DNA of 64,000 nucleotides from Methylacidiphilum caldifontis (lineage in GTDB: Bacteria; Verrucomicrobiota; Verrucomicrobiia; Methylacidiphilales; Methylacidiphilaceae), in the NCBI RefSeq assembly GCF_017310505.1, contig NZ_CP065957.1, positions 558,001 to 622,000 of the forward strand, read 5' to 3'. The translations under genes were made by a program, and so were the position numbers. Shown here one piece after another: positions 5,256 to 34,332 of the stretch. Each line of letters begins with the position of its first letter. Within the stretch, counting starts at the first letter, position 1. The notes below the pieces were generated by a model that was not told where the DNA came from, searched no databases, and saw only the letters and a list, made by a program, of their open reading frames with translations.

Positions 5256-5270
5256 TCATTCCATGAATCA

Positions 5271-10529: not shown

Positions 10530-10556
10530 AACTTTCTTTGATCTTGATCTGGTCAA

Positions 10557-14459: not shown

Positions 14460-17444
14460 ATGAACTTCTGGCAACAAAAACTGCTTGCTTTTTTACATGA
14501 CCCACCCTGTAAACCCTTTAATGTCGGGGAACATAGAGAAATTGCAGAAAGATGTATTATTGACGCTGGTTTTAATGAATTAGATCTTAAATTCAATTAT
14601 CATGTTTGTGATCATATCGCCGCTGCTGCTGATAGACTCATATTTCCTAAGCCTTTTATAGTTCATGCAGAATTTACAAGTACTCATGATTCTCCTTATC
14701 ATCATACCCTTGGGGGAGGAAAATTGCAGTTTTCTGAACCCATTAATAGTTCCGAAGCTGAAAATTTCGTTAAGCAACTTCAGCCGACCTATCTGACCTA
14801 TTACAACCTTGAAGCTATTGAAGACAAAACATTCGATGGGTTTGAAAGAAATGGAAAAGATTGGGCTAATTTCTTTTTGCATTGGCGATTATGGAAAAAA
14901 TTCGTATCAGAAAAAGATCCTAGGCTTGTCTTTTTGCCTGCGGACACTCGCATCCCAGATCATTCTATTTGGACTCATTGTGCCATTACAAGTGCTCTTC
15001 AAGGATGCGTTGAAGTTGAAGGTTACTCCATAAAATCTTTTGATCCCGCCTTTCTTCTTTTTCAAATCGGACCCGTCCAGGAATTCATTGCTCAAGCAAG
15101 AAAAACAAAAGATCTTTGGAGTGGAAGCTATCTTCTTTCCTGGCTAATCGCTCATGCAATAAAAGCTGTAACGGATAGAATAGGGCCAGATGCTATCATC
15201 TATCCTGCTCTTTTTAATCAACCTTTATTTGATTTTTTACACAAAGAAGAACTATATGAAAAAGTTAAGACTCCTGATAACAAAACTTTGTGGGACGAGG
15301 AATTTAGCTCTATTTCTCCCCAAGCAATCTTAACCCCAAACTTTCCTAACCGCTTTCTTGCCCTTATTCCATCCCCCAAAGCATTCGAGATAGCTAATGC
15401 TGCTGAAAATGCTCTCAAAGAAGAGTTAAGAAGGATTGCCGATAGCTGTAAATCATATCTTAAGGATGAGATTGGAATGGAATGGAATGAAAACATTCAA
15501 AAAAGATGGGAAGAACAAATTAGTTCTTTTATTCAGGTTTCATGGTTAGTATATCCCTGGGAAAAGGATATAGTAAAATCAATTGATTTGTTTAGCAAGC
15601 TACCTTTGCAACGATCTGTTGATCAAGAAACTTCTCCCGCAGACAACCTTAGAAAATTATATGATTATGCAAGAACGAGACCTAGAGAGGAACTAGATCC
15701 ACGTAACTTTAGACATATTGGAAATGAAATTGTCTATGATTCTCAAGGTCTTCCAATCATTGAAAATAGTGGTTTCTGTTGGTCAGCCTATTATGCAATA
15801 ACCGATTATCTTCATGCTGCTAGGAGAAACACAAGAGATTTTTCTTTCCTAGGATCACCTTCTGAATTTCAACTTAAGAAAGGAGTTCCAAAGGATACAT
15901 ATTCGGGCAAAGAAGAATCTATAGGTGGGGAAAAATGGCAAAAAATTTTAAAAAACAAACTACCTTACCTTTTCAAAGAAAACGAGCATCTAGGGGCTCT
16001 TAATCTCATAAAAAGGATCTGGGACAAAGCCTATTTAATCAATGTCCACAAACTTTTTCCCCAAGTCTTTGATTCTGTTCCAGATATAGCTGCACTCGAC
16101 TGGCTAAAAGAAAAAACAAATGAGTTAAAAAATAATACGACACATAAAGATTTCACAGTAGCTATAGAAAAAGCAATTGAAAATAAAGAGCTCAATTTGT
16201 CTAAAAAGGATATAAAAACTGACTTAGAAAAAGAAGGCGTTTTCTCTTCTTTTCCTTCTCTTTATTTTCAAACTGAAATTCAACAAATAAAAAAAGATAA
16301 AAATGAAACAACTAAATTCTCAAACTTAGAAAATGCATTAACATGCTTAAAAAAATTACAAAAAGGTGAAAAAATATCAAAACCCAATACCTATATTGCT
16401 ATTTTAGCAATGGATGGGGATTCGATGGGAGAATGGCTTAGCGGACAAAAAACCCCTGAAATAGGAGAATCTCTAGCTAAAAGCATAAAACTCTATTTTA
16501 CTGAAGATATTCTTAAAATTAGACGCCCACTATTCCCTAGTTTCCACCTTGAACTGAGCCAAGCATTAGCCAACTTTTCAATTTTTTTAGCTGCTCCAAT
16601 CGTTAAGCATTTTAATGGACAGTTAATTTATTCAGGTGGTGACGACGTTCTAGCCATGCTTCCTGCAGAAAAAGCTTTAATATGCGCATATGTCTTAAGA
16701 ATGGCTTTTAGAGCTGAAAAGATTTCTCGAACTGATCCAGATTTTGATCTAAACATGCCGCAATATTTTCCTGGAGTACTAGAAGATCAACAACAAGGTT
16801 TTGTTGGATTAAATGGAGAATGGGAAGGATGGAAAAGCTATGGGTTAATAAAAAGTATCCCTAGAGGATATCATCTCCTTCTTATGGGCGATAAAGCAGA
16901 CATCTCAGCAGGCATTGCTATTGGACATATTCATAGTCCACTACAAAATCTAGTCAATAGTGCTAGAGAAGCAGAAAAAAAAGCAAAATCAGCTGACTAC
17001 GGAAAAGCTTCCTTCGTAGTTAACCTTTTTAAACGTTCAGGAGAAATTCTTCAATGGGGTTCAAAATGGTCTTCTAATCAAACCAATACAAAGTGCTATC
17101 CCATAGAAATTATTGAAAAACTAAAGACTTTTTATAATGAAAATAAAATCTCAAGCAGGTTTCCTTATAGGCTTGCAGAACTCACACTACCTTATATATC
17201 CCATAAAGCTCATGATTCCATTGTAAAAGAAAACTTCGATGAGCTTAAGCCAATCATAGAAAAAGACTTCACTTTTGCTCTTTCTCAACATTTCGATACT
17301 AAAAACGACAATTCGATAGAAGAAGAAAAAGAAAAATTTGAACAAATTGGCAAAGAATACCTGGCCCAATCCAAAAAACTATTAGATTTTCTTGGTCCTT
17401 TTTTGACTTTTGCTTTCTTCAAAGAAAAAGGAGAGACAGGATGA
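14460..17444 (+). CDS. cas10: Type III-B CRISPR large subunit Cas10/Cmr2
   Basis: At 994 residues this is the signature subunit of the Cmr effector complex. The N-terminus carries the HD-like motif FLHDPPCKPF (His13-Asp14), with further His/Asp residues near 45-60. Two cyclase-like palm domains follow. The first has LAMDGDSMGEW (Asp652/Asp654); the second has the catalytic GGDD motif at 726-729 followed by VLAMLPA. An intact GGDD predicts synthesis of cyclic oligoadenylates from ATP when target RNA binds, which fits the two CARF genes downstream. The gene ends in a 4-nt ATGA overlap with cmr3, showing tight translational coupling. The HD site looks partly degenerate compared with the type III-A HD nuclease, as is common in Cmr2, so I cannot say whether it cuts DNA. 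Confidence 0.95.
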   Translation: MNFWQQKLLAFLHDPPCKPFNVGEHREIAERCIIDAGFNELDLKFNYHVCDHIAAAADRLIFPKPFIVHAEFTSTHDSPYHHTLGGGKLQFSEPINSSEAENFVKQLQPTYLTYYNLEAIEDKTFDGFERNGKDWANFFLHWRLWKKFVSEKDPRLVFLPADTRIPDHSIWTHCAITSALQGCVEVEGYSIKSFDPAFLLFQIGPVQEFIAQARKTKDLWSGSYLLSWLIAHAIKAVTDRIGPDAIIYPALFNQPLFDFLHKEELYEKVKTPDNKTLWDEEFSSISPQAILTPNFPNRFLALIPSPKAFEIANAAENALKEELRRIADSCKSYLKDEIGMEWNENIQKRWEEQISSFIQVSWLVYPWEKDIVKSIDLFSKLPLQRSVDQETSPADNLRKLYDYARTRPREELDPRNFRHIGNEIVYDSQGLPIIENSGFCWSAYYAITDYLHAARRNTRDFSFLGSPSEFQLKKGVPKDTYSGKEESIGGEKWQKILKNKLPYLFKENEHLGALNLIKRIWDKAYLINVHKLFPQVFDSVPDIAALDWLKEKTNELKNNTTHKDFTVAIEKAIENKELNLSKKDIKTDLEKEGVFSSFPSLYFQTEIQQIKKDKNETTKFSNLENALTCLKKLQKGEKISKPNTYIAILAMDGDSMGEWLSGQKTPEIGESLAKSIKLYFTEDILKIRRPLFPSFHLELSQALANFSIFLAAPIVKHFNGQLIYSGGDDVLAMLPAEKALICAYVLRMAFRAEKISRTDPDFDLNMPQYFPGVLEDQQQGFVGLNGEWEGWKSYGLIKSIPRGYHLLLMGDKADISAGIAIGHIHSPLQNLVNSAREAEKKAKSADYGKASFVVNLFKRSGEILQWGSKWSSNQTNTKCYPIEIIEKLKTFYNENKISSRFPYRLAELTLPYISHKAHDSIVKENFDELKPIIEKDFTFALSQHFDTKNDNSIEEEKEKFEQIGKEYLAQSKKLLDFLGPFLTFAFFKEKGETG

Positions 17445-18709
17445 TAACATTAGACCTTATTCCTTTTGATACACTATTTTTCCGAGATAGTCGACCCCTG
17501 GCTGCTGGTAGTAGTTTTGGGCATGGTGCAAACTGGCCACTTCCTTGTACAATACACGGTGCATTAAGAACAGCTCTCCTTTCTTTTGCCGGAGAATTAC
17601 CATCTGAGCCCAAAAATGGCTGTCAGCGAAAAGGAAAAGTAATGGGAGAAATAGGAACCGATGCATTTAATTGGCTTAATATCAAAGGCCCCTTTCCTGT
17701 AGATCTTAGAAATGAAGAAGTCTATTTTCCAAGACCATTGGATCTTTCTTTGGATTCTGATCTGAAAACTCTTAAGTCCTGCCGCCCATTAAAAATTTCA
17801 AATAATACTTATAAATCTAATCTTCCTTCTCCTATATGCTACCCCGTTGTTTCGTCTACTCCACCTACAAAGAAGGAAGCACCAAGATGGATTCCTTCTT
17901 CTCTTTTCGAAAGATATCTTAAGGAAGAAAGTTTTATCTATGATGTGGAAAAAGTTTTTTGGGACTCAGAATATAGAATTGGAATAGCTATTGACCCTGA
18001 AAGTCAAACTGTAGTAGAAAGTCAATTTTTTGCAGCAGAACATTTGCGACTAAGAGAAGATTTCGCCTTGCGTGTTTTAACTAACAGCCCTCCGGATCAT
18101 AAAAAACAGAATACAACTGAACAAAGCCTTACTCCTGAGAACCTGGATCAACTTACGATAACAGTTGGAGGAGAAAACAGGTTTTGCAAAGTAAAGAAAG
18201 CTTCTAAACAATTAGATTTTTCTAACAAGGATCATATCCAATCAACAAGGCTTAAATGGGTACTTCTTACTCCCGCTATTTTTCGCCAAGGCTTTTTGCC
18301 TGGCTGGATTAATGCGAACAGCACCGCTCAATGGAATGTTTGCCTTCGGCTAGTCGAGAAAGAGAGTCGTCGAGAGTTCCGAAGAAGGCGAAAAATAGAT
18401 CCTAATTGGAAATATGTTCCAGAAAATGACCCAGCTGAACAGATTATAGCACGGCTTGTAGCCGCTTTTATTGGCAAGCCTGTTGCTATCAATGGTTGGG
18501 AAATATTTTCAGGATCTGGTGGTGGACCTAAACCTACGCTTCTTGCTGTACCTGCTGGATCTGTCTTTTACTTTGAAACAGAAAGTGAAAACGAAACAAA
18601 AAAGTTAGCTGAAGCCCTCCATTTTCGATGCCGCTCTGACTTTTATGGAGAAAAAGGACTAGGACTTGGTCTTTGTGGAACTTGGTCTTATTCTGAACTC
18701 TTATTGTAG
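17441..18709 (+). CDS. cmr3: CRISPR type III-B protein Cmr3 (Cas5 group)
   Basis: This 422-residue protein starts MITLDLIPFDTLFFRDSRPL, a characteristic Cmr3 N-terminus, followed by FGHGANWPLPCTIHGALRTA. Near the C-terminus a glycine-rich segment (GSGGGPKPTLLAVPAGSVFYF) and GEKGLGLGLCGTW match the RAMP fold. Cmr3 pairs with Cas10 and binds the 5-prime handle of the crRNA, capping the foot of the complex. The ATG overlaps the cas10 stop by 4 nt. About 77 nt separate it from cmr4. Confidence 0.93.
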   Translation: MITLDLIPFDTLFFRDSRPLAAGSSFGHGANWPLPCTIHGALRTALLSFAGELPSEPKNGCQRKGKVMGEIGTDAFNWLNIKGPFPVDLRNEEVYFPRPLDLSLDSDLKTLKSCRPLKISNNTYKSNLPSPICYPVVSSTPPTKKEAPRWIPSSLFERYLKEESFIYDVEKVFWDSEYRIGIAIDPESQTVVESQFFAAEHLRLREDFALRVLTNSPPDHKKQNTTEQSLTPENLDQLTITVGGENRFCKVKKASKQLDFSNKDHIQSTRLKWVLLTPAIFRQGFLPGWINANSTAQWNVCLRLVEKESRREFRRRRKIDPNWKYVPENDPAEQIIARLVAAFIGKPVAINGWEIFSGSGGGPKPTLLAVPAGSVFYFETESENETKKLAEALHFRCRSDFYGEKGLGLGLCGTWSYSELLL

Positions 18710-18786: not shown

Positions 18787-19725
18787 ATGACAGAATCCAT
18801 GCAAATCCTAAAACAAGGAAAACCTGCTTTAGCTTTTCTTTATCTTTTTACCCAAACTCCCCTGCATATTGGAGCAGGCAGTTCAGTGGGAGCAATAGAT
18901 CTCCCTATTATCAGAGAAAGACACACGGGATTTCCCATAATTCCGGGGAGTGCTATTAAGGGAGTTTTTCGTGATGAATGGGTTAAAAAAGATACTTTGG
19001 AAATTACCGATGAAGGGAAAAAACTTTTTGGTGTTGGATCAGATAGTGAGGCTCAAAGTGGATTAATTCAGTTTACTGAAGCTAAACTATTAGCATTTCC
19101 AATCCGATCTTTAAAAGGTTGTTTTGCTTGGATTACTAGTCCACTTATACTCAAACGTTATTTCAGAGACTTACATAAAAATGATTTTTCAATGCCTAAT
19201 TCTCTTATTGATAATAAAGCTTTATTCAAAAAAGATAACCCAATTTCTATAGAAGATCACTCAACTACTGCTAAGGTCATTTTAGAAGAGTATATTTTTG
19301 AGTATTTAGATGATCCTCCTGAAATTTTATATTCAATATTAACAGAAGAACTAACACACAAAAATGAAATCTTAAAAGAGATACCTAAAAGAATAGTAAT
19401 AGTAAGCGATGGAACAATGAGTTTTTTTACACAAACTGCTTGCCAGATTGCTCAACATGTAAAAATTGATGATAAAACAGGTACTGCTGAAGAAGGAGCT
19501 TTGTTTAATCAGGAGAATGTGCCTTCTGAAACTCTTTTTTATAGCGTTGTAAGAAGGAGTTCTATTAAAAACGACTCTTTTGATCCATTCGAGAAGTTAA
19601 CAAGTAAGATTAAAGAAAAAAACCATCTTTTCCAATTTGGAGCAGATGCAGGAACTGGTCTTGGATATTGTACAACATTCTTAAACTACAAGCTTCATAT
19701 TCAGCAAAGCGAAAACCAATTTTAA
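18787..19725 (+). CDS. cmr4: CRISPR type III-B backbone protein Cmr4 (Cas7 group)
   Basis: This 312-residue RAMP protein has the Cmr4 N-terminal signature TPLHIGAGSSVGAIDLPIIRE, then GFPIIPGSAIKGVFRDEW. Asp38 in GAIDLPI corresponds to the aspartate that cuts target RNA at 6-nt intervals in characterised Cmr4 proteins. A C-terminal glycine-rich segment (FGADAGTGLGYC) completes the fold. It should polymerise along the crRNA as the backbone. AAAGGAG lies just before the ATG as a good ribosome-binding site. Confidence 0.94.
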   Translation: MTESMQILKQGKPALAFLYLFTQTPLHIGAGSSVGAIDLPIIRERHTGFPIIPGSAIKGVFRDEWVKKDTLEITDEGKKLFGVGSDSEAQSGLIQFTEAKLLAFPIRSLKGCFAWITSPLILKRYFRDLHKNDFSMPNSLIDNKALFKKDNPISIEDHSTTAKVILEEYIFEYLDDPPEILYSILTEELTHKNEILKEIPKRIVIVSDGTMSFFTQTACQIAQHVKIDDKTGTAEEGALFNQENVPSETLFYSVVRRSSIKNDSFDPFEKLTSKIKEKNHLFQFGADAGTGLGYCTTFLNYKLHIQQSENQF

Positions 19726-19743: not shown

Positions 19744-20103
19744 ATGAGCACAATGACAAACTTAGATATACTCAGAGCTAAACATGCATTAAATAGAGCA
19801 AATAATTTAGATAAAAAAAATGTTAATAAAATACCAGGACTAATAATGTCCAATGGATTATTATCTACTCTTGCTTATATTATTGACAAAAAAAGTGATT
19901 CTGAAACTTCCAAAGCCATGGAGGCTGTAATTGATTATTTAAAAGAAAGAAATGTGATATCCAAAAACACAGTTACCGGTGCTCTCCAGGAATTAACCAA
20001 CGGCGATTCCATTAAATTACAACGAGCTACTTTTGAAGCATTACAATATCTTTCTTATCTAAAAAGATTTTCTGAAAAAAAGGAAATTCAAAAAAATACT
20101 TAA
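19744..20103 (+). CDS. cmr5: CRISPR type III-B small subunit Cmr5 (Cas11 group)
   Basis: This 119-residue, mostly helical and lysine-rich protein sits between cmr4 and cmr6, as Cmr5 does. N-terminal RAKHALNRANNL and C-terminal FEALQYLSYLKRFSEKKEI fit the small-subunit family, which lines the minor filament of the complex. It begins 18 nt after cmr4 behind GCGAGGTAG and is followed by cmr6 after only 3 nt. Confidence 0.88.
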   Translation: MSTMTNLDILRAKHALNRANNLDKKNVNKIPGLIMSNGLLSTLAYIIDKKSDSETSKAMEAVIDYLKERNVISKNTVTGALQELTNGDSIKLQRATFEALQYLSYLKRFSEKKEIQKNT

Positions 20104-20106
20104 TCA

Positions 20107-21009
20107 ATGAATAATTATATTGCTATTAAACCAATCAAAGAATTAATAAAAAAAAATAATCCTGATTCACTTGCTCTTTGTTTAGTAAAATACGTAGATC
20201 CTAGGAAAAATAATGGATTTAATGCAAAAGAATATTACTTCAATCATTTAAAAACTATAAAGCTAAATCTAAAAAGAATCGACACTTGGTGGAATTTTAT
20301 ACATTCCATTCCAAAAAATCGAATATTTTATTTTCAACTACAATCTCAAAAACTGCTGATCAATACAGCCGCAGTAATCACGGGAAAATTTGGAGTATGT
20401 ATTGATTATTACGGAATCCCTTATATACCTGGAAGTGCTGTTAAAGGTTGCGCTCGAAGCGTAGCAATCAAAGAGTTGCGAAATGCTTCAGAGGCCAATA
20501 AGGCTGAGTTGTTATCTACCATTGCACTGGTTTTTGGATGGTCAGAAGCAGACTGGACAAAAAATGAAACTCTTTCTGATTTTTATTGGGGATGTAACAA
20601 AAATGATGAAATTTTAAGTGATGCTGCCTCATTAATAATGGAAAAGATAATTGGAAAGCACAACAAACAACTTATTCAAGAAATTCCAAACTTTGCAGGC
20701 ACAGTTTCTTTTTTGGATGCTTATCCAATACCTCTAAAATTTTATCCTTCAAATTACAATACCTATAACTCTTATCATCATCGTGATTTTCCTCAATATC
20801 CTCATCCTGTAACACGCAACCATATCTTCAGTTTTTGTCTGATTCCTTCTCCAAAACGAATTTTGGTAGATGCCCTTACTAAGAGTATTGGTTGGCTCAA
20901 AAAAGGACTAGAAGATCATGCAATAGGCGCAAAGAAAAAAAATGGTTATGGAAAATTTATAGACTGTACCGAAAAAGTTAAAAGAATGATTAATAAAACA
21001 ACTAGATAA
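20107..21009 (+). CDS. cmr6: CRISPR type III-B protein Cmr6 (Cas7 group)
   Basis: This 300-residue RAMP protein has a central signature YYGIPYIPGSAVKGCARSVA (about 101-120). A conserved block near 205-250 reads GTVSFLDAYPIPL. A C-terminal Lys-Gly loop (GLEDHAIGAKKKNGYGKF) matches Cmr6 families. It should cap the head of the Cmr filament. It is the last subunit gene; no cmr1-like RAMP gene is present anywhere in the window. Confidence 0.9.
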   Translation: MNNYIAIKPIKELIKKNNPDSLALCLVKYVDPRKNNGFNAKEYYFNHLKTIKLNLKRIDTWWNFIHSIPKNRIFYFQLQSQKLLINTAAVITGKFGVCIDYYGIPYIPGSAVKGCARSVAIKELRNASEANKAELLSTIALVFGWSEADWTKNETLSDFYWGCNKNDEILSDAASLIMEKIIGKHNKQLIQEIPNFAGTVSFLDAYPIPLKFYPSNYNTYNSYHHRDFPQYPHPVTRNHIFSFCLIPSPKRILVDALTKSIGWLKKGLEDHAIGAKKKNGYGKFIDCTEKVKRMINKTTR

Positions 21010-21266: not shown

Positions 21267-22358
21267 ATGAATCAAAAAAAAGAAACTATTTTATTAGCTG
21301 TTGTAGGTACATCTCCTGCAGTTATTCCTGAGACTATCTGGGGGCTTATCCATGAGTCTCCTCCTCTCTGTCCTCGTTTCATTGATGTCATTACAACAAC
21401 TGCTGGTAAAAGATCAATAGAATCCGAACTGTTAAATCCAGGAAAAAATTCCTTATCTATCTGGGATGAATTTAGACAAGGGTTAATCGATAAAAAAAAG
21501 ATAAGTCCTGATTCAGTTATCCTTAGAGAGATCAAAGTTATTCCCTCTCCTCTTAAAGAGCAAGGTAAGTGTGTGGAGTTGGAAGATATTCGCACAGCCA
21601 AAGAAAATGAAGATGCAGCAGATTACATTCTTGAAGAAGTAAGGAAAATTACAGAAAACCCTGACACTCTTCTCATTGCTTCAGTAGCTGGAGGAAGAAA
21701 AACAATGAGCATCCTACTCTCCATTTCCATTTCCATGCTTGGTAGAGAGGGAGATAGACTTACTCATGTACTAGTCAATGAACCCTATGATGATCCACGG
21801 CTTCAACCCAAATTTTACTATCCAACACAAAAAGAACAGCTTCTAAAGACAATATCGAGCAGTGTAGTACATGCTAAAGATGCCAAAATTGAGTTAGCAA
21901 ACATCCCCTTTGTTAGATTTAGAGAGCTTTTCCCAAAAGAGCTAGGAAGATTCCCAGGTCGATTCACAAATCTGGTCCATGAATTTTCCAATGAAATTAA
22001 AAAGTTAAATCCTAAGCTCGATTTCGATCCTCAATCTGGAAAAATCATAATCAACGACCAGGAAATCGCGCTAAAAGGTAGAGAACTGGCATTTTTTGCT
22101 TTTCTCTGGGATAGGAAAAAGAAAAATCTTCCACCCCTAGAAACTCATAATGATGTTGATAATCTCTTTCCTAGCTTTTTTGAGCAATGGAAAAAGGAAA
22201 ATACTCAATTAAGCGCTTCAATAAAAGATTGGGATCTCGACATTGAAGATTATAGAAAATGTTTGAGTAACTTAAGAAAAAAATTAAAAGTTAACGGTTT
22301 AGGAAAATACAGTGAACTATTTTTCCCAACAAGAGGAAAAGTTGGTCTTCCTTCCTAA
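21267..22358 (+). CDS. CARF-domain protein of the NE0113/Csm6-like family with winged-helix C-terminus
   Basis: At 363 residues it starts with a CARF-type Rossmann domain: ILLAVVGTSPAVIPETIWGL at 8-27 and the ligand-loop motif SVAGGRKTMS (139-148), followed by HVLVNEPYDDP. These match the family usually labelled CRISPR-associated NE0113 or ring-nuclease Csm6. Residues about 255-363 (IALKGRELAFFAFLW, then CLSNLRKKLK) read like a winged helix rather than a HEPN RNase. No RxxxxH HEPN motif stands out in this region. It is therefore best seen as a cOA sensor that regulates the locus or degrades the cOA signal. The position after cmr6 and before a second CARF gene supports a role in cOA signalling. 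Confidence 0.82.
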   Translation: MNQKKETILLAVVGTSPAVIPETIWGLIHESPPLCPRFIDVITTTAGKRSIESELLNPGKNSLSIWDEFRQGLIDKKKISPDSVILREIKVIPSPLKEQGKCVELEDIRTAKENEDAADYILEEVRKITENPDTLLIASVAGGRKTMSILLSISISMLGREGDRLTHVLVNEPYDDPRLQPKFYYPTQKEQLLKTISSSVVHAKDAKIELANIPFVRFRELFPKELGRFPGRFTNLVHEFSNEIKKLNPKLDFDPQSGKIIINDQEIALKGRELAFFAFLWDRKKKNLPPLETHNDVDNLFPSFFEQWKKENTQLSASIKDWDLDIEDYRKCLSNLRKKLKVNGLGKYSELFFPTRGKVGLPS

Positions 22359-22461
22359 CACATTCGATCTGCATCCATTATATCAAGGAAAAGCTCTTAG
22401 ATGGTAAAGAGAAAGACCGAGGAGCCAAAAATAATTTTTTATAAACAAAGGAGTAATTATA

Positions 22462-24363
22462 ATGCAAAGAAATGGTAATGATTATGATAGGCCAAATATT
22501 ACTTCTTTGTCACAGAAAAATATTCTTCTATGCACCTTAGGAGAATCTTGGATCATTCTTATAGAAGCTGCAGATTATAAGCATCTTGATGAAATTCATT
22601 GTTTAACAGGCATTTCAGCAAAAGTTGAATCCAATTTTGAAAAACTTTTTTCTTCTTTTGAAAAAAGGAACTGCACTTTTGGCATATGGCAATTGAAAGG
22701 ATTCAATGAAGCCGAAACTCAAGAACAGGTAGAAAACTTCAATGAAACGCTTTTTAGGTGGTATCTGTACCATTTACAAAAAAATAATCAGTTGCCATAT
22801 GCCTGTATTGCTGGTGGATACAAATCGATGGCAGCTGTTCTCCATAAAGCCGCTTATAGCTTTGGATCAAAAGGAATATTCCATATTCTAGTCAGTGGAG
22901 ATCCTCCTAAAGATGAAGAAAATTATAATATAGCTAAGCTTGAAAAAAGAATTTTCTATGTTGATCTCGGAGAAGAACAAGGATTTGACGCTTTACATGA
23001 ATTAAAATCGGGTGATTTTCCCTTAGAATGTTCACAAATAAGAAAATACAAGAATATTCATCATTATCTAATCGATATTCCTTCAAAGAAAAACTTATGG
23101 GAGGTATGTAAAAACACATTAAAAAATATTTCTAGAAAGGCTAAGGCCTGGGATAAGAAAGAGAGTCTTCCTTTTTCTATTCTTGCTGTTGCTCCTGACA
23201 GCTTTATAGATTGGCTTAACAAAAATGTTGACCCACAGGAAGACAAAAATTGGATCAAGCAACTCCCAAAGATCGAATTGCACTGCCATTTAGGCGGTTT
23301 TGCAACTCATGGTCGAGCATTAGAAGAAGTTAGAAAAAAAGCAAAAACACAACAAAGTAACTTCCCCCCTCCCCCTCCCTTGCCTGAGGGATGGCCAGAA
23401 CCCAAAAAAGAGATAGGTCTTGAAGCCTATATGAAGTTAGGCAATGCAACAGGATCTAATCTTCTTAAAGACCAGGGTTGCTTAGAAAAACATTGTCAAC
23501 TTCTTTATGAAGCATTGTGCGACGACAACGTTGTTTATGCTGAAATACGCTGTTCACCAAATAACTATGCAACTCCTCAGGATGGTCGATCAGCTTGGGT
23601 TGTGTTAGAAGAAATCAGAAATTATTTTCAACAAGCAATGGATAAGAAGAAAAGAGAAAATTTTGAAGCTTTTTGCCACGTCAACCTCGTCATTATTGCT
23701 GACCGTAAAAGCGCTGATCTTTCCTCCTTAAGTCGCCATCTTTCTTTAGCTATCACTGCAAATCAGCATTTTCTAGTACAATGGGAAAGTTGTGCTATCG
23801 TAGGAGTGGATTTAGCTGGTTTTGAATCAAGGGAGACGAGGGCTGAACTTTTTTCTTATGACTTTACTCCAATTCATCGATGTGGAATAGCAGTTACGGC
23901 TCATGCTGGAGAAAATGATGATGCTGAAGGCATATGGCAGGCTATATTTAAGCTGCATGCCAGAAGATTAGGCCATGCTTTAAGTTTAAAAAATTCAAAA
24001 GATCTTTTAAGAACCGTAGTGGATAGAAAAATTGCTATAGAGTTATGTCCTTATGCAAACTATCAAATTAAGGGATTTTATCCAATGCAAGGAAAAGAAG
24101 AATATCCTTTTTATGATTATCATAAAAAGGGAATTGTTGTTACGGTTAATACAGATAACATAGGTATAAGTAAAGCCAGCCTTTCAGATAATTTTCTTTT
24201 TCTTTCAACCAAACTTTGTCCTCAACTTACGAAAATGGATATTTTGAGGATCATCTCTAATTCAATTAGGGCTGCCTTTCTTCCTTACAAGGGTCAAATG
24301 GAGCTTCAGAAGAAAGTTGAAGATAAATTGAGCAAACTCATTCAGCAATATGTCCAGGTTTGA
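22462..24363 (+). CDS. CARF-adenosine deaminase fusion, Cad1-like type III CRISPR effector
   Basis: This 633-residue fusion has an N-terminal CARF domain (about 20-160): NILLCTLGESW, then CIAGGYKSMAAV with GGYKSM at 118-123. A linker (about 165-265) leads to a C-terminal metal-dependent adenosine deaminase domain (268-630). Deaminase motifs are ELHCHLGG (His274, His276), TAHAGEN (His481, Glu484), RLGHAL (His505) and VNTDN (Asp565). All expected zinc ligands and the catalytic Glu are present. The residue after Asp565 is Asn, where classical deaminases have a second Asp that contacts substrate. Family knowledge: CARF-deaminase fusions in type III loci (Cad1) bind cyclic oligoadenylate and convert ATP to ITP, stopping phage growth. 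The same activity is inferred here. A GGAG site (AAAGGAGTAATTATA) precedes the ATG. Confidence 0.9.
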   Translation: MQRNGNDYDRPNITSLSQKNILLCTLGESWIILIEAADYKHLDEIHCLTGISAKVESNFEKLFSSFEKRNCTFGIWQLKGFNEAETQEQVENFNETLFRWYLYHLQKNNQLPYACIAGGYKSMAAVLHKAAYSFGSKGIFHILVSGDPPKDEENYNIAKLEKRIFYVDLGEEQGFDALHELKSGDFPLECSQIRKYKNIHHYLIDIPSKKNLWEVCKNTLKNISRKAKAWDKKESLPFSILAVAPDSFIDWLNKNVDPQEDKNWIKQLPKIELHCHLGGFATHGRALEEVRKKAKTQQSNFPPPPPLPEGWPEPKKEIGLEAYMKLGNATGSNLLKDQGCLEKHCQLLYEALCDDNVVYAEIRCSPNNYATPQDGRSAWVVLEEIRNYFQQAMDKKKRENFEAFCHVNLVIIADRKSADLSSLSRHLSLAITANQHFLVQWESCAIVGVDLAGFESRETRAELFSYDFTPIHRCGIAVTAHAGENDDAEGIWQAIFKLHARRLGHALSLKNSKDLLRTVVDRKIAIELCPYANYQIKGFYPMQGKEEYPFYDYHKKGIVVTVNTDNIGISKASLSDNFLFLSTKLCPQLTKMDILRIISNSIRAAFLPYKGQMELQKKVEDKLSKLIQQYVQV

Positions 24364-24432: not shown

Positions 24433-25440
24433 ATGCCTTCTGCTTATTTAATTCAGTCTTATACTAAAATCTCACTCTATTCAGAAAGACTCCAAGTCGT
24501 TGGATTAAATGAAGAAAGTGGTTCAGAAGAAGTTATTAGAGAAATTCCTTTAAGAGAACTCGAAAGAGTTGTATTGGATCAAACTGTTTCTATTACTACT
24601 CCAGCTCTCTGTGAATTGATGAACCGGAACATTCCCATTTCTTTTTTGGGTTTTAATGGACAAATTATAGGAGGATTTCTTCCTCCCTTAAATTCACATG
24701 GCCTGTGGAGACAAAAGCAATATCAGAATAGCTTAGATCCCAAATCTGTTCTTACATTCTCAAGTAAGCTCATTAGGGGAAAAATTTATAATCAAAGGCG
24801 TTCTCTTCAAAGGCTAAGCTTAAACAGAAATATCAATATAGAAAAAGATCTCCAATGGCTAAATCAAATTCTCTTCAATGTTGCTTCAGCTTCCACTGTT
24901 GACGAAGTTCGAGGATACGAAGGAGCCACTACAGCCCGTTATTTTCAAACTTGGTCTACCTTTTTACCAAAAGAATTTCCTTTTGAGCGCAGATCCACTC
25001 GTCCTCCACTCAATCCTGTAAATGCTTGTATATCATTTGGTGCAACCCTTCTTTACAATGAAATGACGGCTCTTATTCATCTCCATGGACTTGATCCCGC
25101 ATTAGGTTTTTTACATGCTCCAGAAAATGAAAGATGGTCTCTTGCTTTAGATCTCATTGAACCCTTCAGACCCGTAATTGTAGAAGCATTAACACTAGAT
25201 CTTTTTAGCCACAAGATTCTTAATCATGAGCATTTTGAAAAGAAAAACGGGGGTTGTTATTTAAACGAATCAGGAAGAAGAAAATTTCTTGCTCAATATG
25301 AAACTAGATTAGAAAGACAATTTCTTTCTGAATTTGCCAGTTGTAGAACGACCCTAAGAGTGCAATTAGAATCTTGCGCCTGTTCATTCAAAGCGGCTTT
25401 AGAGGATCCAGAAAAATTTGAACCTTTCTTAATGAATTAA
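24433..25440 (+). CDS. cas1: CRISPR integrase Cas1
   Basis: This 335-residue Cas1 has the catalytic triad in place: Glu163 in RGYEGATTARYF, His228 in LGFLHAPENE, and the acidic pair Asp240/Glu243 in LDLIEPFRPVI. With Cas2 it integrates new spacers at the leader end of the array. The protein is a plain Cas1: there is no reverse transcriptase or Cas6 domain fused to it. An AGGAAAAAAGAAGA stretch precedes the ATG. cas2 follows 2 nt after the stop codon. Confidence 0.95.
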   Translation: MPSAYLIQSYTKISLYSERLQVVGLNEESGSEEVIREIPLRELERVVLDQTVSITTPALCELMNRNIPISFLGFNGQIIGGFLPPLNSHGLWRQKQYQNSLDPKSVLTFSSKLIRGKIYNQRRSLQRLSLNRNINIEKDLQWLNQILFNVASASTVDEVRGYEGATTARYFQTWSTFLPKEFPFERRSTRPPLNPVNACISFGATLLYNEMTALIHLHGLDPALGFLHAPENERWSLALDLIEPFRPVIVEALTLDLFSHKILNHEHFEKKNGGCYLNESGRRKFLAQYETRLERQFLSEFASCRTTLRVQLESCACSFKAALEDPEKFEPFLMN

Positions 25441-25442
25441 CC

Positions 25443-25829
25443 ATGAGCAGAAATGATGAATACACAGAAAATCAATCTGAAGAACCATCTTATTGGTGGT
25501 ATGAAGCTTTTACCCCTTTACCCAGCAGAAAAAAACCACCAGGAGAGAAAAAAATGCTCACTGTTATTGCATATGACATTTGTGATGACAAGAGATTACA
25601 TAAAATAGCAAAAATTTGTGAAGATTATGGTGTAAGGGTTCAGTTTAGTGTTTTTGAGTGTTATTTAGAAGAATCAGAATTGGAAGGGCTTTGGAAAAAA
25701 TTACTTTCAGAAATCAATCCAAAAGAAGATAGAATTGTTGCCTATAAAATTGATTCTAGATTAGCGAAAGAAATTAAAACAGCAGGTACAATGGTTTGTT
25801 CAGAGAAAGTACTCTGCTTTTTGGTATAA
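25443..25829 (+). CDS. cas2: CRISPR adaptation protein Cas2
   Basis: The open frame gives 128 residues, but Cas2 homology (LTVIAYDICDDKRLHKIAKICEDYG) begins at the in-frame ATG 25554. That start has AGGAGA at 25541-25546, seven bases upstream, and gives the normal Cas2 length of about 91 residues. The 25443 start lies right after the cas1 stop and has no ribosome-binding site. Either the 37 extra residues are an unusual extension reached by coupling, or the true start is 25554, which I favour. Asp in the YDI motif is the conserved acidic residue at the dimer interface. It works with Cas1 in spacer integration. Confidence 0.9.
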   Translation: MSRNDEYTENQSEEPSYWWYEAFTPLPSRKKPPGEKKMLTVIAYDICDDKRLHKIAKICEDYGVRVQFSVFECYLEESELEGLWKKLLSEINPKEDRIVAYKIDSRLAKEIKTAGTMVCSEKVLCFLV

Positions 25830-26110: not shown

Positions 26111-29100
26111 GTTAGAACTAGAGATGAAGCCGAAAGGCAATTGAGACGAGATATCCGATTACCTGAATAATGTTAACGGGTCAATCGTTAGAACTAGAGA
26201 TGAAGCCGAAAGGCAATTGAGACTTACTAGCTTAGCTACCTGATACGACCTAGCAGCCTTTGTTAGAACTAGAGATGAAGCCGAAAGGCAATTGAGACCT
26301 TTTCGGCCTCTTGGATGGCATTTTTTAAGGTCTCGTTAGAACTAGAGATGAAGCCGAAAGGCAATTGAGACTCATAATTGGCTCCCTTCCTTGCTATGTT
26401 GAAAATTAACGTTAGAACTAGAGATGAAGCCGAAAGGCAATTGAGACGTCATTCTTATCACTTTCCCTTTCGCAGGAAAGCCCATTTGTTAGAACTAGAG
26501 ATGAAGCCGAAAGGCAATTGAGACCTCAAGACCGTTGATGGCAATGATTTTATTATATTCTGTTAGAACTAGAGATGAAGCCGAAAGGCAATTGAGACTG
26601 GTTCCCAATAATATATATAAAATGATATTGGCCTTTCGTTAGAACTAGAGATGAAGCCGAAAGGCAATTGAGACCCTTGTTTGTTGTTCCACAAGTATTC
26701 TTTCATTTTATTACCGTTAGAACTAGAGATGAAGCCGAAAGGCAATTGAGACAGTCTCCCAGCCTTGATAACCAGAGATTGGGCGGACTCGTTAGAACTA
26801 GAGATGAAGCCGAAAGGCAATTGAGACAAATCTCGCATTTAACTTTCATTTATATTATTCCCCAGTTAGAACTAGAGATGAAGCCGAAAGGCAATTGAGA
26901 CTCAGCCATCCAATTACCTCTTCCTTTTTCATTTCTTTTTGTGTTAGAACTAGAGATGAAGCCGAAAGGCAATTGAGACATAAAAGCTGATATAGTTTTT
27001 CTTCATTCATTTCTTTCCGTTAGAACTAGAGATGAAGCCGAAAGGCAATTGAGACTTGAGATTTAATAATTTTCCAGAGTTCAGGAACTGATGTTAGAAC
27101 TAGAGATGAAGCCGAAAGGCAATTGAGACGGATTTGTCTTTTTAACTTTCTCCAGAAGTTTCTTGGAGTTAGAACTAGAGATGAAGCCGAAAGGCAATTG
27201 AGACGAATTAATTCAATTACTTGACCTGGATGAGCTGCTGCTCGTTAGAACTAGAGATGAAGCCGAAAGGCAATTGAGACGAGCTTCCGTGGGCTGATGG
27301 CGGGAAAACCACAACGCAGTTAGAACTAGAGATGAAGCCGAAAGGCAATTGAGACGCGCAAACTTTTTCAAAGAACTTTTCTGGCTCCTGAGGTTAGAAC
27401 TAGAGATGAAGCCGAAAGGCAATTGAGACTTCAGAGGAATAAACTCTCCCCGGAAAATATTTTTCAGTTAGAACTAGAGATGAAGCCGAAAGGCAATTGA
27501 GACGCGTCCTTCATTATCGACAATGAGCTTACTAAAATTAGTTAGAACTAGAGATGAAGCCGAAAGGCAATTGAGACCTTCCCCTCATAATTCCATCCAG
27601 CCCAAGGATGGAACGTTAGAACTAGAGATGAAGCCGAAAGGCAATTGAGACTCCAACACGGAAAGATATAATCCGGCTCGTCTTTATTGGTTAGAACTAG
27701 AGATGAAGCCGAAAGGCAATTGAGACGGGTACTGCTGAATCATTACCACTAGAGATTGATGTTGTTAGAACTAGAGATGAAGCCGAAAGGCAATTGAGAC
27801 ACATATACAATTCCCAATCTTCCCTTACTTTTTGGGAAAGTTAGAACTAGAGATGAAGCCGAAAGGCAATTGAGACTCCATTATGTATTCTCCCCCCGGA
27901 AAGTATTCATTAAGTTAGAACTAGAGATGAAGCCGAAAGGCAATTGAGACGGTTTTTTGAGGACTCGCCCGAGCCCTCATTTTACGTGTTAGAACTAGAG
28001 ATGAAGCCGAAAGGCAATTGAGACGCTGGCTCATGCTTGTTGAGCCAGACAAGCTCTTTTACTGTTAGAACTAGAGATGAAGCCGAAAGGCAATTGAGAC
28101 AACTTCCTTCCCCGTTACGGGGAAGAAAATAAACACTTGTTAGAACTAGAGATGAAGCCGAAAGGCAATTGAGACCCCCTCAACCCAGATTGGTTCTGAG
28201 TTGAGGGGAATGATAGTTAGAACTAGAGATGAAGCCGAAAGGCAATTGAGACATTTCCTATGATCTATAAGCCGATCTTGGTAATCAAAAGTTAGAACTA
28301 GAGATGAAGCCGAAAGGCAATTGAGACGGGAAATATTTATTAAGATCTTCCTCAACCTGATCGAGGAAGTTAGAACTAGAGATGAAGCCGAAAGGCAATT
28401 GAGACTTCCTCGACCTTATCAAGGAATTGAGCCACATCAGGGAAGTTAGAACTAGAGATGAAGCCGAAAGGCAATTGAGACGCTCCCAGTTGGCCAACTG
28501 GAAGCACAATTCCTTCTACCGGTTAGAACTAGAGATGAAGCCGAAAGGCAATTGAGACAGCCTTCTAAATAATACTCCTCCGCTATGGAGGAGAGATGTT
28601 AGAACTAGAGATGAAGCCGAAAGGCAATTGAGACCAGCCAATATCTCCAATTTACCTCGATCTCATACGGTAGTTAGAACTAGAGATGAAGCCGAAAGGC
28701 AATTGAGACAAAGAACACACCTCTGGTACCATGGTAGATGTGAATGTTACGTTAGAACTAGAGATGAAGCCGAAAGGCAATTGAGACGAGGGTGAGGGTT
28801 AGGATTGGGGTTCCCACCTACCTTCGTTAGAACTAGAGATGAAGCCGAAAGGCAATTGAGACCGTCTTCTTTTGCAAGTGAAGGTAAGCGGTGTGTTCTG
28901 TTAGAACTAGAGATGAAGCCGAAAGGCAATTGAGACAGCAACCCGAACCGGGCCACTCCCCCGACGGAGGATGATGCAGCGTTAGAACTAGAGATGAAGC
29001 CGAAAGGCAATTGAGACATAATCTTTCGGCCAATGCTTTTCTACATAAGCTTTTGTTAGAACTAGAGATGAAGCCGAAAGGCAATTGAGACACCCGTTTT

Positions 29101-30825
29101 GAAACAGCCATTCCTTAGATCTTATATGGGGTTAGAACTAGAGATGAAGCCGAAAGGCAATTGAGACGGGGAAACAAAGTGCCCGTAATCTTTCACCGGG
29201 AAAACGTTAGAACTAGAGATGAAGCCGAAAGGCAATTGAGACTTTGCCATCGTAGTTCCAACCAGCCCAAGGGTGGAACTTGTTAGAACTAGAGATGAAG
29301 CCGAAAGGCAATTGAGACGAAATTTCGAACAGCAATCTCCCGACTTTTCTTTTGGGAGTTAGAACTAGAGATGAAGCCGAAAGGCAATTGAGACCATCAA
29401 CCAATTCCTTGGAAGCTAACTCACTCAAGTCAGTTAGAACTAGAGATGAAGCCGAAAGGCAATTGAGACTCCATTTACAGTCTATGTATTCTGGCTCATT
29501 GTAATTGTTAGAACTAGAGATGAAGCCGAAAGGCAATTGAGACTTATGAGGTTAAAATGAAACCCGATAAGTCATATACATGTTAGAACTAGAGATGAAG
29601 CCGAAAGGCAATTGAGACCACTTTTCTCTACACTAATTACATACTCCTCACAACGTTAGAACTAGAGATGAAGCCGAAAGGCAATTGAGACGAAATTTCG
29701 AACAGCAATCTCCCGACTTTTCTTTTGGGAGTTAGAACTAGAGATGAAGCCGAAAGGCAATTGAGACAGCCCCCCTTTGTAAACATAGAGCCGCTCATTA
29801 TAAATAGTTAGAACTAGAGATGAAGCCGAAAGGCAATTGAGACCCCACAAGATTGTCGCGTTAAAAGGAATGACTGCTCCCAGTTAGAACTAGAGATGAA
29901 GCCGAAAGGCAATTGAGACAAAACCACTTCTACCATAGCTTCAAGATGATCTGGAGGTTAGAACTAGAGATGAAGCCGAAAGGCAATTGAGACCATCAAC
30001 CAATTCCTTGGAAGCTAACTCACTCAAGTCAGTTAGAACTAGAGATGAAGCCGAAAGGCAATTGAGACTCCATTTACAGTCTATGTATTCTGGCTCATTG
30101 TAATTGTTAGAACTAGAGATGAAGCCGAAAGGCAATTGAGACTCCTGGTTGAGGTTTTTTGAAGGCTCTACCCGAGCCCTGTTAGAACTAGAGATAAAGC
30201 CGAAAGGCAATTGAGACTTTATTTTCTATTTACGAGGATTCACCCGAATCCTCATCGTTAGAACTAGAGATGAAGCCGAAAGGCAATTGAGACTTCTAGC
30301 TCTTTCCTTGTTTTTTCTTTCATTGTTTTGCTCGTTAGAACTAGAGATGAAGCCGAAAGACAATTGAGACCCAGACCAGTTCTTTGGTTATATCCTCAAG
30401 GGGAAAGTTGTTAGAACTAGAGATGAAGCCGAAAGGCAATTGAGACGACTTTTCTCACTCTTATAATGTCTCCTTTATTCAAGGGTTAGAACTAGAGATG
30501 AAGCCGAAAGGCAATTGAGACAAACAGGCTTGTGGAAATATCTCCAATCAATGTGTCTAGTTAGAACTAGAGATGAAGCCGAAAGGCAATTGAGACTCAT
30601 CTTCCTCTACAAAAGTCCAATACCCTGAATCCCAAGTTAGAACTAGAGATGAAGCCGAAAGGCAATTGAGACGAACGAGAAACATTCCATGCTTCCCAGA
30701 CATGGTATTCCGTTAGAACTAGAGATGAAGCCGAAAGGCAATTGAGACGGGAAGTGCGGAAGATTTAGATTGATCTCTTTATCCTGATGTTAGAACTAGA
30801 GATGAAGCCGAAAGGCAATTGAGAC
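26111..30825 (+). CRISPR. CRISPR array, 63 repeats of 37 bp and 62 spacers
   Basis: I counted 63 copies of a 37-bp repeat that starts GTTAGAACTAG and ends ATTGAGAC, separated by spacers of 36-44 nt. The repeat contains GCC-GAAA-GGC, a 3-bp stem with a GNRA-type tetraloop, one base before the last eight bases. Those eight would be the 5-prime handle of crRNAs (AUUGAGAC), close to the handle known in type III systems, so transcription is rightward from the cas2 side. Two repeats near the right end each carry one G-to-A change (in the copies starting at 30181 and 30334), as expected at the old, leader-distal end. Three spacers occur twice, and a striking share form stem-loops. No cas6 gene is present to process it, so a trans-acting Cas6 or host RNase is needed. 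Confidence 0.99.
29319..30105 (+). repeat. Duplicated spacers within the CRISPR array
   Basis: Three spacers occur twice with identical sequence: 29319-29357 equals 29692-29730; 29395-29432 equals 29994-30031; and 29470-29506 equals 30069-30105. The order is A-B-C-D-E-A-F-G-H-B-C. Independent acquisition of three identical spacers is unlikely, so a segmental duplication through recombination between repeats, followed by partial loss, is the simpler reading. Confidence 0.95.
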
Positions 30826-31958: not shown

Positions 31959-32027
31959 TTGAGCTTTAGCATTAATTTATTGAATGGATACGAAAGATGA
32001 AACAAAAAGACACTTAAGAATAAACAG

Positions 32028-33905
32028 GTTGACATCCTCCCCGGCCTGAAGGCCGGAGATTCCTACGGCGCTCAGGGGTGGCATGGCGCCTCTCCTGGGT
32101 CGCTTCGGTGGGTTCCTGCTTCCGACCGCCAGCGCGGTTCGATCCACAGGCCATCCGGGCTGACGGCTTGCGCCATCCCGCTGCAAGCGTGTAGCGTGTC
32201 CTGCCCTTCGTCCCGCAACATTTGCATCCCACAAGAGAGGATGTTGATTGCACCGACCACATCGGCGTTGTCCTCAAAACCACATTCCACACACGCAAAC
32301 CGGGCCTGCGTCTGGCGGTTGTCCGCCGAAACGTGTCCGCAGCACGGGCAGGCGCGGCTCGTATTCTGCGGCGGCACGGTGATCAGCCGGCCGCCCCGCC
32401 ATGCCAGCTTGTAGTCCAGTTGGCGACCGAACTCGAACCAACCTTGATCCAGGATCGACTTGTTCAGGCCGGACATGGCCCGAACCTTTCGGCCTGGAGC
32501 CTCGACAGTGCCCGCCGCCGACCCGGACATGTTCCGTACCTGCAAGTCCTCGACGAAGACTACAGCGTGGTTTTTGCTGATCGCGGTCGAGGTCTTATGC
32601 AGGAAGTCGCGGCGGACATTAGCGATGCGTGCGTGGATGCGCCCAACTCTTGCTTTTGCCTTCCTCCAGTTGTTGCTGAATCTGACCCTGCGGCTCAATG
32701 ACTGCTGCGCCTTGCCCAACGCCATCTCATGCCGCCTGAAGCTGTGGAGCGGGGCGTAGAACGTGCCATCCGAGAGCGTAGCGAAGCGGGCGATCCCCAT
32801 GTCGATGCCAACCGTACCCCCTTGCGGGATAGGACGCTCCACCTCCCGCTCGGCCTGGATGCTCACGTACCACTTACCGCATGACTGGCTTACGGTGACG
32901 TTCTTGACTACACCGAGCACCTCCCGGCTGTTGCGGTAGCGCAGCCAACCGAGCTTAGGCAGAAAGATGCGGTTGTTGTGCTGCTCCAGCTTGATCTGCT
33001 TCGGGTCAGGATAGCGGAAGCTATCCGACATGCCTTTCTTCCTGAAGCGTGGGAAACCAGCCCACTTGGCAAAGAAGTTGGCGTAGGCTCGCTCCAGGTC
33101 TTTGAGAGATTGTTGCAAGGGATGCACCGGAGCGTCCTTGAGCCATGCCGTCTCCGCGCTGTTGCGCCACTCGGTGAGCAGCTTGCACAACCCAGCGTAG
33201 CCAAGTTTTTTCTCGCCTCGCTCGTGGCGCTCCTTCTGCAACGCCAGCGCCCTGTTGTAGACGAACCGGCATGAGCCAGCAAAGCGGCACATTTGCCGCT
33301 CCTGCTGGCCGTTTGGCATCAATTCGTACTTGAAGGCTTGGCGGATAAGCATGGAAACATTATACTTAGCCTATGGCGCAAAATCAAGATATAAGACATG
33401 GACGGCACTATGTCTTCAAGATGCACGTCCATTTGGTCTTCGTGACGAAATACCGCCGCAAAGTGTTCGACGACGACGCCATCAACCGGCTGCGCACGAT
33501 CTTCGCCAAGGTCTGTGCCGACTTTGAGGCGCAACTCGTCGAGATGGACGGCGAGGACGATCACGTCCATCTGCTCGTGGAATATCCGCCCAAGGTCGCC
33601 GTCTCCAACCTGGTGAACAGTCTCAAGGGCGTATCCAGCCGGCTGCTGCGCAAAGAGCGGCCCGACATTCAGAGCTGGTACTGGCGCGGTGTGCTGTGGT
33701 CGCCGTCGTACTTTGCTTCAAGCAGCGGCGGCGCGCCGATTTCCATTGTGCGCCAGTACACCAGAGCAGCTGCAGACGCCACACTGAAAACGGGCCAAAG
33801 GCGAAGTTTCGGCGAAGCCAAACCCAAGGACGGCTACGCCGTCCGCGCTATCCTTCCCCGCCCTGAACGGCGGGGCAAGCCCGCGCACTTGGTCAAAAAT
33901 TACTT
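32028..33905. mobile_element. IS605-type element with divergent tnpA and tnpB
   Basis: The element is visibly richer in GC than its surroundings. It carries tnpB leftward and tnpA rightward, 20 nt apart, back to back. Each outer end has a hairpin of the kind recognised by Y1 transposases: CCGGCC-TGAA-GGCCGG at 32041-32056 next to the tnpB 3-prime end, and CCCCGCC-loop-GGCGGGG at 33856-33875 next to the tnpA end. No long terminal inverted repeats or target duplication are expected for this family. Both genes look intact, so the element may be active. The boundaries are approximate. Confidence 0.85.
32072..33352 (-). CDS. tnpB: RNA-guided nuclease TnpB (IS605 OrfB)
   Basis: This 426-residue TnpB has an N-terminal helix-turn-helix region (RQAFKYELMPNGQQERQM). 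The RuvC-like catalytic triad is complete: Asp184 in VGIDMGIARF, Glu268 in VVFVEDLQVRNM and Asp364 in DNADVVGAINIL. The zinc-ribbon cysteines are Cys335/Cys338 and Cys354/Cys357. Family knowledge: TnpB is guided by an omega/reRNA taken from its own 3-prime end and the transposon right end, and cuts DNA next to a target-adjacent motif, helping to retain the transposon. The guide RNA would map to about 32028-32100 on the minus strand, overlapping the right-end hairpin. It sits back to back with tnpA. Confidence 0.92.
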   Translation of the reverse strand: MLIRQAFKYELMPNGQQERQMCRFAGSCRFVYNRALALQKERHERGEKKLGYAGLCKLLTEWRNSAETAWLKDAPVHPLQQSLKDLERAYANFFAKWAGFPRFRKKGMSDSFRYPDPKQIKLEQHNNRIFLPKLGWLRYRNSREVLGVVKNVTVSQSCGKWYVSIQAEREVERPIPQGGTVGIDMGIARFATLSDGTFYAPLHSFRRHEMALGKAQQSLSRRVRFSNNWRKAKARVGRIHARIANVRRDFLHKTSTAISKNHAVVFVEDLQVRNMSGSAAGTVEAPGRKVRAMSGLNKSILDQGWFEFGRQLDYKLAWRGGRLITVPPQNTSRACPCCGHVSADNRQTQARFACVECGFEDNADVVGAINILSCGMQMLRDEGQDTLHACSGMAQAVSPDGLWIEPRWRSEAGTHRSDPGEAPCHP

Positions 33906-34316: not shown

Positions 34317-34332
34317 ATTCTTTCCTTTTTTC

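Follow-up and report, generated by a model that had tools for sequence, protein, structure and literature searches.

A 64,000-nt stretch of the genome of the hot-spring methanotroph Methylacidiphilum caldifontis (NCBI RefSeq assembly GCF_017310505.1, contig NZ_CP065957.1, positions 558,001 to 622,000, forward strand; hereafter "the window", in whose coordinates positions are given) carries a type III-B CRISPR locus with two proteins that contain CARF domains. The second of these, Cad1, fuses CARF to an adenosine deaminase (ADA) domain, and we consider it probable (about 0.85) that Cad1 is the main effector activated by cyclic oligoadenylate (cOA), with the first, CARF1, acting as a second cOA sensor or regulator. 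Both open reading frames (ORFs) lie exactly where a preliminary description of the window had placed them (21267–22358, +, 363 aa; 22462–24363, +, 633 aa). Cad1 is ordinary for its family; its CARF–winged-helix neighbor is less understood and deserves more attention than the deaminase.

The CARF–deaminase fusion and its locus

Judged by its defining features as far as sequence shows them, the ORF at 22462–24363 is a Cad1 (CAAD) orthologue. Solved Cad1 chains were matched by phmmer across almost the whole protein (9ebt, E = 1.4e-160; 9c67, 5.6e-160; 8z3k, 3.6e-139), and with such E values the motif matches are not due to chance. Identity reached 280 of 582 aligned residues with 9c67 and 278 of 571 with 9ebt, i.e., BabCad1 and TaqCad1, respectively, the species being deduced from residue numbers that all fit published positions. 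Against TaqCad1, the ADA domain (203/338 identical) was matched at a higher rate than CARF (59/173). The architecture, CARF at the N-terminus and ADA at the C-terminus, was recovered by PADLOC (CARF_ADA, 4e-163 over residues 19–629) and by a Foldseek search with the AlphaFold2 (AF2) model, whose best fold match is itself a Cad1 (9mmw, 7.4e-64). No other PF00962 deaminase was found in the genome.

All the motifs that the preliminary description had listed for the fusion were seen: GGYKSM (118–123), HCH (274–276, an HxH with H276 as its second His), HAGE (481–484), GH (504–505), and Asp565. By alignment, H274, M324, H481, H505, and D565 correspond to BabCad1 H243, M294, H448, H472, and D533, alanine mutants of which lost toxicity (PMC11645235). 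Lys121, in CARF motif II, corresponds to TaqCad1 K106 and BabCad1 K104: a K106A change removed cyclic tetra-adenylate (cA4) binding in TaqCad1 (PMC12669630), and a single K104A change had no in vivo effect in BabCad1 (PMC11645235). Trp379 aligns, at the sequence level, with W349, which the BabCad1 hexamer requires (PMC11645235). The deaminase site is thus intact, as had been claimed, but it is not that of a canonical ADA: two ADA aspartates are replaced by Gly278 (HLGG) and Asn566 (TDN), which align with TaqCad1 G264 and N549. In TaqCad1 both residues touch adenosine triphosphate (ATP), and N549D abolished ATP deamination (PMC12669630). The pair points to ATP as the substrate.

Several results argue against too close an equivalence with the characterized enzymes. 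BabCad1 ligand residues H11, T35, and N130 are altered to E28, G50, and D147 (E28, in motif I, stands for TaqCad1 Thr10 and the BabCad1 His), and H179 and S183 replace R161 and K165, two of the three residues on which BabCad1 depends at its inter-domain ATP site; the third, K589, is kept as K622, and this site may not be general among Cad1 proteins. Ligand preference and the second ATP site may therefore differ from BabCad1. The AF2 model is moderate (predicted local distance difference test score, pLDDT, 81; seven sequences in the alignment, drawn in part from 6 of 10 loci that passed a length and completeness filter). When it was compared with Cad1 structures, as the preliminary description had proposed, the ADA domain fitted 9ofd well (2.1 Å; template-modeling score, TM, 0.91), but full-length superposition failed (root-mean-square deviation 17–19 Å, TM ~0.6), i.e., the domains fit singly and their arrangement is not reproduced by the model.

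The genes of the locus are as follows:

14460–17444, +: cas10/cmr2, 994 aa; TIGR02577, 1.6e-75; HD motif LHDP at residues 12–15 and SGGDD at 725–729
17441–18709, +: cmr3; PF09700, 1.5e-50
18787–19725, +: cmr4; TIGR02580, 4.3e-60
19744–20103, +: cmr5; PF09701, 1.1e-16
20107–21009, +: cmr6; TIGR01898, 1.8e-12, 47.8 bits (just below the cut-off of 51.1); PADLOC Cmr6, 3.2e-14
21267–22358, +: CARF1; TIGR02584 (NE0113), 2.5e-56; CARF at ~1–246, OmpR-type winged helix at ~250–363
22462–24363, +: cad1, the CARF–adenosine deaminase fusion
24433–25440, +: cas1; PF01867, 1e-82
25443–25829, +: cas2; PF09827, 2e-22
26111–30825, strand not assigned: CRISPR array of 63 repeats of 37 nt, with spacers of 36–44 nt

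Profile search recovered cas10, cmr3–cmr6, and cas1–cas2, which with the array make up the type III-B locus described previously. The GGDD of Cas10/Cmr2 is intact, also as described, but the two CARF genes come after cmr3–cmr6 and not as the next gene. Cmr3–Cmr6 are encoded in the locus and Cmr1 elsewhere in the genome, a single contig of 2.25 Mb in which this cas10 is the only TIGR02577 gene.

No HEPN effector was found among nine scanned proteins of the locus, which agrees with the earlier remark that no HEPN RNase is evident nearby, and tblastn with queries from relatives revealed neither NUDIX-like nor Card1-like genes in the window. A genome-wide search with a genus-mate's Csx1 returned no homologue; this search did not extend to PF09670 Csm6-HEPN and Card1-type effectors. 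PF22230 (Csx1 CARF) also had no match in the genome, a weak control given that the genus-mate's real Csx1 scores 16.9 bits, under the cut-off. With no HEPN RNase found, the suggestion that deamination is the likely main cOA output is supported. Neither Cad1 nor CARF1 matched PHROGs at E ≤ 0.1.

CARF1: fold, distribution, and possible role

CARF1 belongs to the TIGR02584/NE0113 family (191 bits, cut-off 80.65). A 2014 survey counted NE0113 with the CARF families that lack an effector domain, and predicted a role in transcription (PMC4012209); NCBIfam labels the family a ring nuclease, and the literature that we searched yielded no experimental study of it. By its AF2 model (pLDDT 93.7) and a profile search, CARF1 joins a CARF domain, folded like Crn1 and Cad1-CARF, to a C-terminal winged helix of OmpR/PhoB type. 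The VIA fold matches of the CARF domain were Cad1-CARF (Z 15.4), Sis0455 (7z55, 14.9), and Sso2081 (7yhl, 14.6), with Sis0811 (11.9) and Csa3 (9.9) more distant. Since these matches span residues 4–246 only, the winged helix rests on the AF2 model and a profile search: the model has three short strands, three long helices, and one short helix across residues 251–352, and all 17 PDB sequences matched by the C-terminal profile at E ≤ 0.01 are named response regulators, with CpxR the best (4e-05 for the whole sequence). Searched by phmmer alone, CARF1 matched nothing in the PDB at E ≤ 1.

Model and profile agree on a C-terminal winged helix, and Pfam is weak on this point. Indeed, not all results favor a DNA-binding domain of this type. 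DSSP assigned no clear hairpin to the wing but a single bridge residue at 359; the CpxR match spans mainly the first strands and helix, with E = 0.0024 for its best stretch; and Pfam Trans_reg_C was found in 3 of 63 CARF1 members (best E 0.0044), the M. caldifontis domain itself being unmatched. Five intergenic stretches revealed no operator-like repeat beyond chance: their longest shared word was 12 nt, and 40 of 100 shuffles reached at least 12. Two other assignments were rejected. An R-X5-H string of CARF1, R232/H238, resembles the HEPN motif (R-X4-6-H) but is poorly kept among the relatives: 7 of the 63 sequences have the Arg, and His is outside the six commonest letters at its position. 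The PADLOC label CARF_TM hints at a membrane anchor, which is at odds with a top 19-residue hydropathy of only 1.4.

In Sso2081, binding and cleavage of cA4 involve Ser11, Glu17, Asp75, Arg105, and Lys106 (PMC10018336). Matched by motif position and not by structural alignment, they correspond to CARF1 Ser16 (Ser in 54 of 63 sequences and Thr in a further 7), Glu22 (62/63), Asp107, and Arg144-Lys145 (each 63/63), Sso2081 Tyr133, in a helical insert, being left unmapped. The 63 sequences are the M. caldifontis protein and those of 62 out of 80 fetched loci (78 usable; 16 dropped by choice, with no fixed rule).

These 80 loci were the best of 533 from a scan of named genomes, i.e., not a census, and neighboring genes were called by tblastn (E 1e-6). 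Among them, cmr1 was found in 39 and a Card1/Can2-like CARF-nuclease in 38, followed by Csm6-HEPN types (11), Cas6 (11), cad1 (10), a further CARF-HEPN-like protein (10, weak Pfam match), and a NUDIX-like protein (7; Pfam 19.4 bits, just short of the cut-off of 21.1). The next known gene after CARF1 was cas1 in 28 loci, cas10 in 11, cmr1 in 6, and others in 7; for the rest, the contig ended within 1.2 kb of CARF1 (15 loci) or no known gene followed (13). The ten cad1 loci included a Card1-like gene in eight cases and a NUDIX-like gene in six. The NUDIX-like gene follows cad1 directly in loci L074, L075, L078, L112, L121, and L122, and is absent from the M. caldifontis locus.

Across 39 Verrucomicrobiota genomes with a TIGR02577 Cas10 over cut-off, CARF1 was present in 19, i.e., in 7 of 9 genomes with Cad1 versus 12 of the 30 that lack it (Fisher p = 0.065). 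Given so weak a co-occurrence, we rejected CARF1 as a Cad1-specific partner and treated it as a general III-B accessory; 8 of 27 CARF1 genomes lacked a Cas10 over cut-off. The nine Cad1 genomes were hand-picked from the 114 that gave a match of any kind, out of 288, the remaining 105 having matched the ADA part only, and include one (G234) in which the Cad1 N-terminus runs off the contig.

The preliminary description had suggested that the first CARF protein could switch the signal off. The Crn1 cA4-binding residues are kept, but the protein is not a bare CARF, and with its winged helix regulation of transcription is a competing reading; a ring nuclease, a regulator, or both are plausible. The genome also holds a separate candidate ring nuclease, Csx3-AAA. 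CARF proteins with a winged helix-turn-helix (wHTH) are known both as a transcription factor (Csa3) and as a ring nuclease (Sso1393/Sis0811), so that sequence cannot decide the role of CARF1. That CARF1 is primarily a ring nuclease, whose CARF dimer would cleave cA4 and end Cad1 activity while the winged helix tunes or inhibits it as in Sso1393/Sis0811, is a serious possibility, to which we give a little less than even odds. All Sso2081 residues checked have conserved counterparts, the Z scores to the Crn1 ring nucleases 7z55 and 7yhl are high, Sso1393 is a wHTH-bearing CARF protein that degrades cA4 (PMC10018336), co-occurrence irrespective of effector would suit an off-switch, and the NCBIfam family name points the same way. 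However, a protein that binds cA4 and leaves it uncut would require nearly this set of residues too, Cad1-CARF is as good a fold match, and a location before cas1 or cas10 favors a regulator. Csx3-AAA is moreover already a candidate ring nuclease, and some Cad1 proteins, e.g., TaqCad1, themselves cleave cA4 (PMC12669630). A narrower proposal, in which CARF1 is a counterpart of Csa3 in bacteria, i.e., a cA4-sensing and perhaps cA4-degrading OmpR-type transcription factor tying the type III alarm to the expression of cas1–cas2, and so to spacer acquisition, and of the effector operon, strikes us as tentative and rather unlikely in this full form.

Integrity of the system and related genomes

One result speaks against a complete type III-B locus: tblastn of the window found no cmr1 between cmr6 and CARF1. 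A second cluster, at G000:C1:669,558–677,413 (equivalent to L145:3559–11414; G000 denotes the M. caldifontis genome, other G numbers those of relatives), lies outside the window, 86 kb beyond cas2, and encodes the following:

Remote cluster: Csx3-AAA (PADLOC, 6.7e-51)
Remote cluster: helicase with a C-terminal nuclease domain, 1495 aa
Remote cluster, 91–92 kb downstream of cas2: Cmr1 (PADLOC, 8.4e-13; Pfam RAMP, 1.4e-06; under the TIGR01894 cut-off)
Remote cluster: second Cmr6 (1.4e-29)

On these sequence matches, the cluster would supply the missing Cmr1 in trans, plus a candidate ring nuclease in Csx3-AAA. Within the window, a short ORF at 11123–11560 (+) resembles the tail of the remote-cluster helicase in matching the MTES_1575 nuclease domain, and may be what is left of a cluster that was duplicated or moved.

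In related genomes, the effectors vary. Genus-mate G042 has cad1 between a cmr1 and cas10, and carries a CARF-HEPN Csx1 (PADLOC, 8.1e-110) and Csx3-AAA between cmr6 and CARF1; a search for a csx1/csx3 scar between these genes in the window gave no convincing match. In genus-mate G149, CARF1 is intact, csx1 is reduced to a remnant, and cad1 (L148:11946–14809) is broken into pieces in different frames, ~1.1 kb apart, with an insert that holds a GH108-like (phage-lysozyme-like) ORF (PF05838, 3e-07). No Cad1 match was found in G054, G008, or G262. Together, these patterns indicate that the presence of cad1 varies from genome to genome in this family. CARF1 was found in four of six genus and family genomes (G000, G042, G149, and G262) and not in G054 or G008.

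It is conceivable, though in our view improbable, that the M. caldifontis system is silent or non-functional, with cmr1 split from the locus, relatives losing effectors, and Cad1 a relic. The empty place between cmr6 and CARF1, when 39 of the best 80 relatives' loci have cmr1, and the broken cad1 and csx1 remnant of G149 would fit such decay. On the other side, the ORFs of the locus are open with active-site residues kept, 61 of 63 array repeats are perfect (the other 2 having one mismatch), and Cmr1 and a second Cmr6 are encoded at a distance of 86–94 kb. A 2019 paper considered the CRISPR systems of M. kamchatkense Kam1 and M. fumariolicum SolV apparently functional (PMC6688271).

The window holds three further features of note. 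Within the array, two identical 113-nt stretches at 29282–29767 and three spacers present twice are probably the result of a block duplication. Beyond it, the GC content of positions 32001–36000 is 57%, versus 34–47% in the remaining 4-kb blocks; from their motifs, we take the ORFs there to be like parts of IS200/IS605 and TnpB, which makes this a probable mobile-element insertion near the array. To the left of the locus, positions 2391–10556 (−) encode two helicases, one of SNF2/DEAD type and the other DruE-like and 1761 aa long (PADLOC DruE3, 4.1e-98), a possible Druantia-type defense.

Effector output and significance

By analogy with characterized relatives, from which its activity is inferred, the best reading of Cad1 is a cOA-triggered conversion of ATP to inosine triphosphate (ITP). 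Because the Cad1 pair Gly278/Asn566 takes the place of the canonical ADA site, the enzyme should act poorly on adenosine and deoxyadenosine triphosphate (dATP); in the studies of Cad1 enzymes consulted, adenosine, adenosine monophosphate (AMP), dATP, and RNA were poor or non-substrates (PMC11645235, PMC12669630). The preliminary description had envisaged a nucleotide pool depleted or changed. Depletion is no more than half of the picture: ITP rose and ATP did not fall in Baca et al. (PMC11645235).

In the sequence of events that we propose, target RNA would lead the GGDD-bearing Cas10 to make cOA; cA4, or cyclic hexa-adenylate (cA6), would bind the Cad1 CARF dimer around Lys121; and the ADA sites of a Cad1 hexamer would then turn ATP to ITP, such that growth and phage production stop, as has been shown for relatives. 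Since no NUDIX gene adjoins cad1, we propose that a chromosomal Ham1-type ITPase (PF01725, 2.1e-52) would clear the ITP; three NUDIX proteins are encoded elsewhere in the genome. CARF1 would most likely sense cA4, may cleave it, and would regulate transcription of cas or effector genes. That Cad1 instead acts on a substrate other than ATP (dATP, adenosine, or RNA), or that ring-nuclease activity of its CARF is its main role, is very unlikely: the altered CARF ligand residues and inter-domain ATP site, and the ring-nuclease activity and mild in vivo defense of TaqCad1 (PMC12669630), would be in keeping with it, but the ATP-contacting pair of TaqCad1 is kept and the alternative substrates are those on which Cad1 enzymes act poorly or not at all (PMC11645235, PMC12669630).

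Among known systems, the Thermoanaerobaculum aquaticum TaqCad1 (PMC12669630) shares with Cad1 of M. caldifontis a type III-B locus, the CARF-ADA architecture, the metal ligands, the Gly/Asn pair, and Lys106; its locus adds a Csx1 RNase, whereas no Csx1 was found here and the neighbor is a CARF-wHTH protein. BabCad1 from Bacteroidales (PMC11645235) has H243, M294, H448, H472, D533, K104, and W349 all conserved, but its context is type III-A and its H11, T35, N130, R161, and K165 are unconserved. Among the archaeal proteins, Csa3, a transcription factor, and Sso1393/Sis0811, a ring nuclease (PMC10018336 for the latter), resemble CARF1 in joining CARF to a winged helix. The CARF domain of CARF1 is nonetheless nearer Crn1 and Cad1-CARF (Z ~15) than either Csa3 or Sis0811, and its winged helix resembles response regulators, unlike this archaeal comparison set. 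LngCAAD, which we take to be the Limisphaera protein of PDB 8z3k, is also close to the M. caldifontis Cad1, as its E value above indicates. In Li et al. 2025, CAAD was reportedly paired with a NUDIX hydrolase turning ITP to inosine monophosphate (IMP); the M. caldifontis locus differs from LngCAAD, with its reported partner, in having no NUDIX gene.

Cad1 has already been characterized in at least three species, and this orthologue adds an enzyme from a thermoacidophile. Cad1 may be the sole cOA effector of this natural locus, which would then offer a clean setting for the effect of ATP-to-ITP conversion alone. CARF1, for its part, occurs often in type III-B genomes of Verrucomicrobiota, usually before cas1 or cas10. 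If the proposed cA4-responsive role of CARF1 is true, the signal behind Cad1 arrest would also reset or retune immunity, and the arrest would be a timed, reversible state; if CARF1 regulates cas1–cas2 on cA4, this would be a link between alarm and memory in bacteria, as is thought for Csa3 in archaea.

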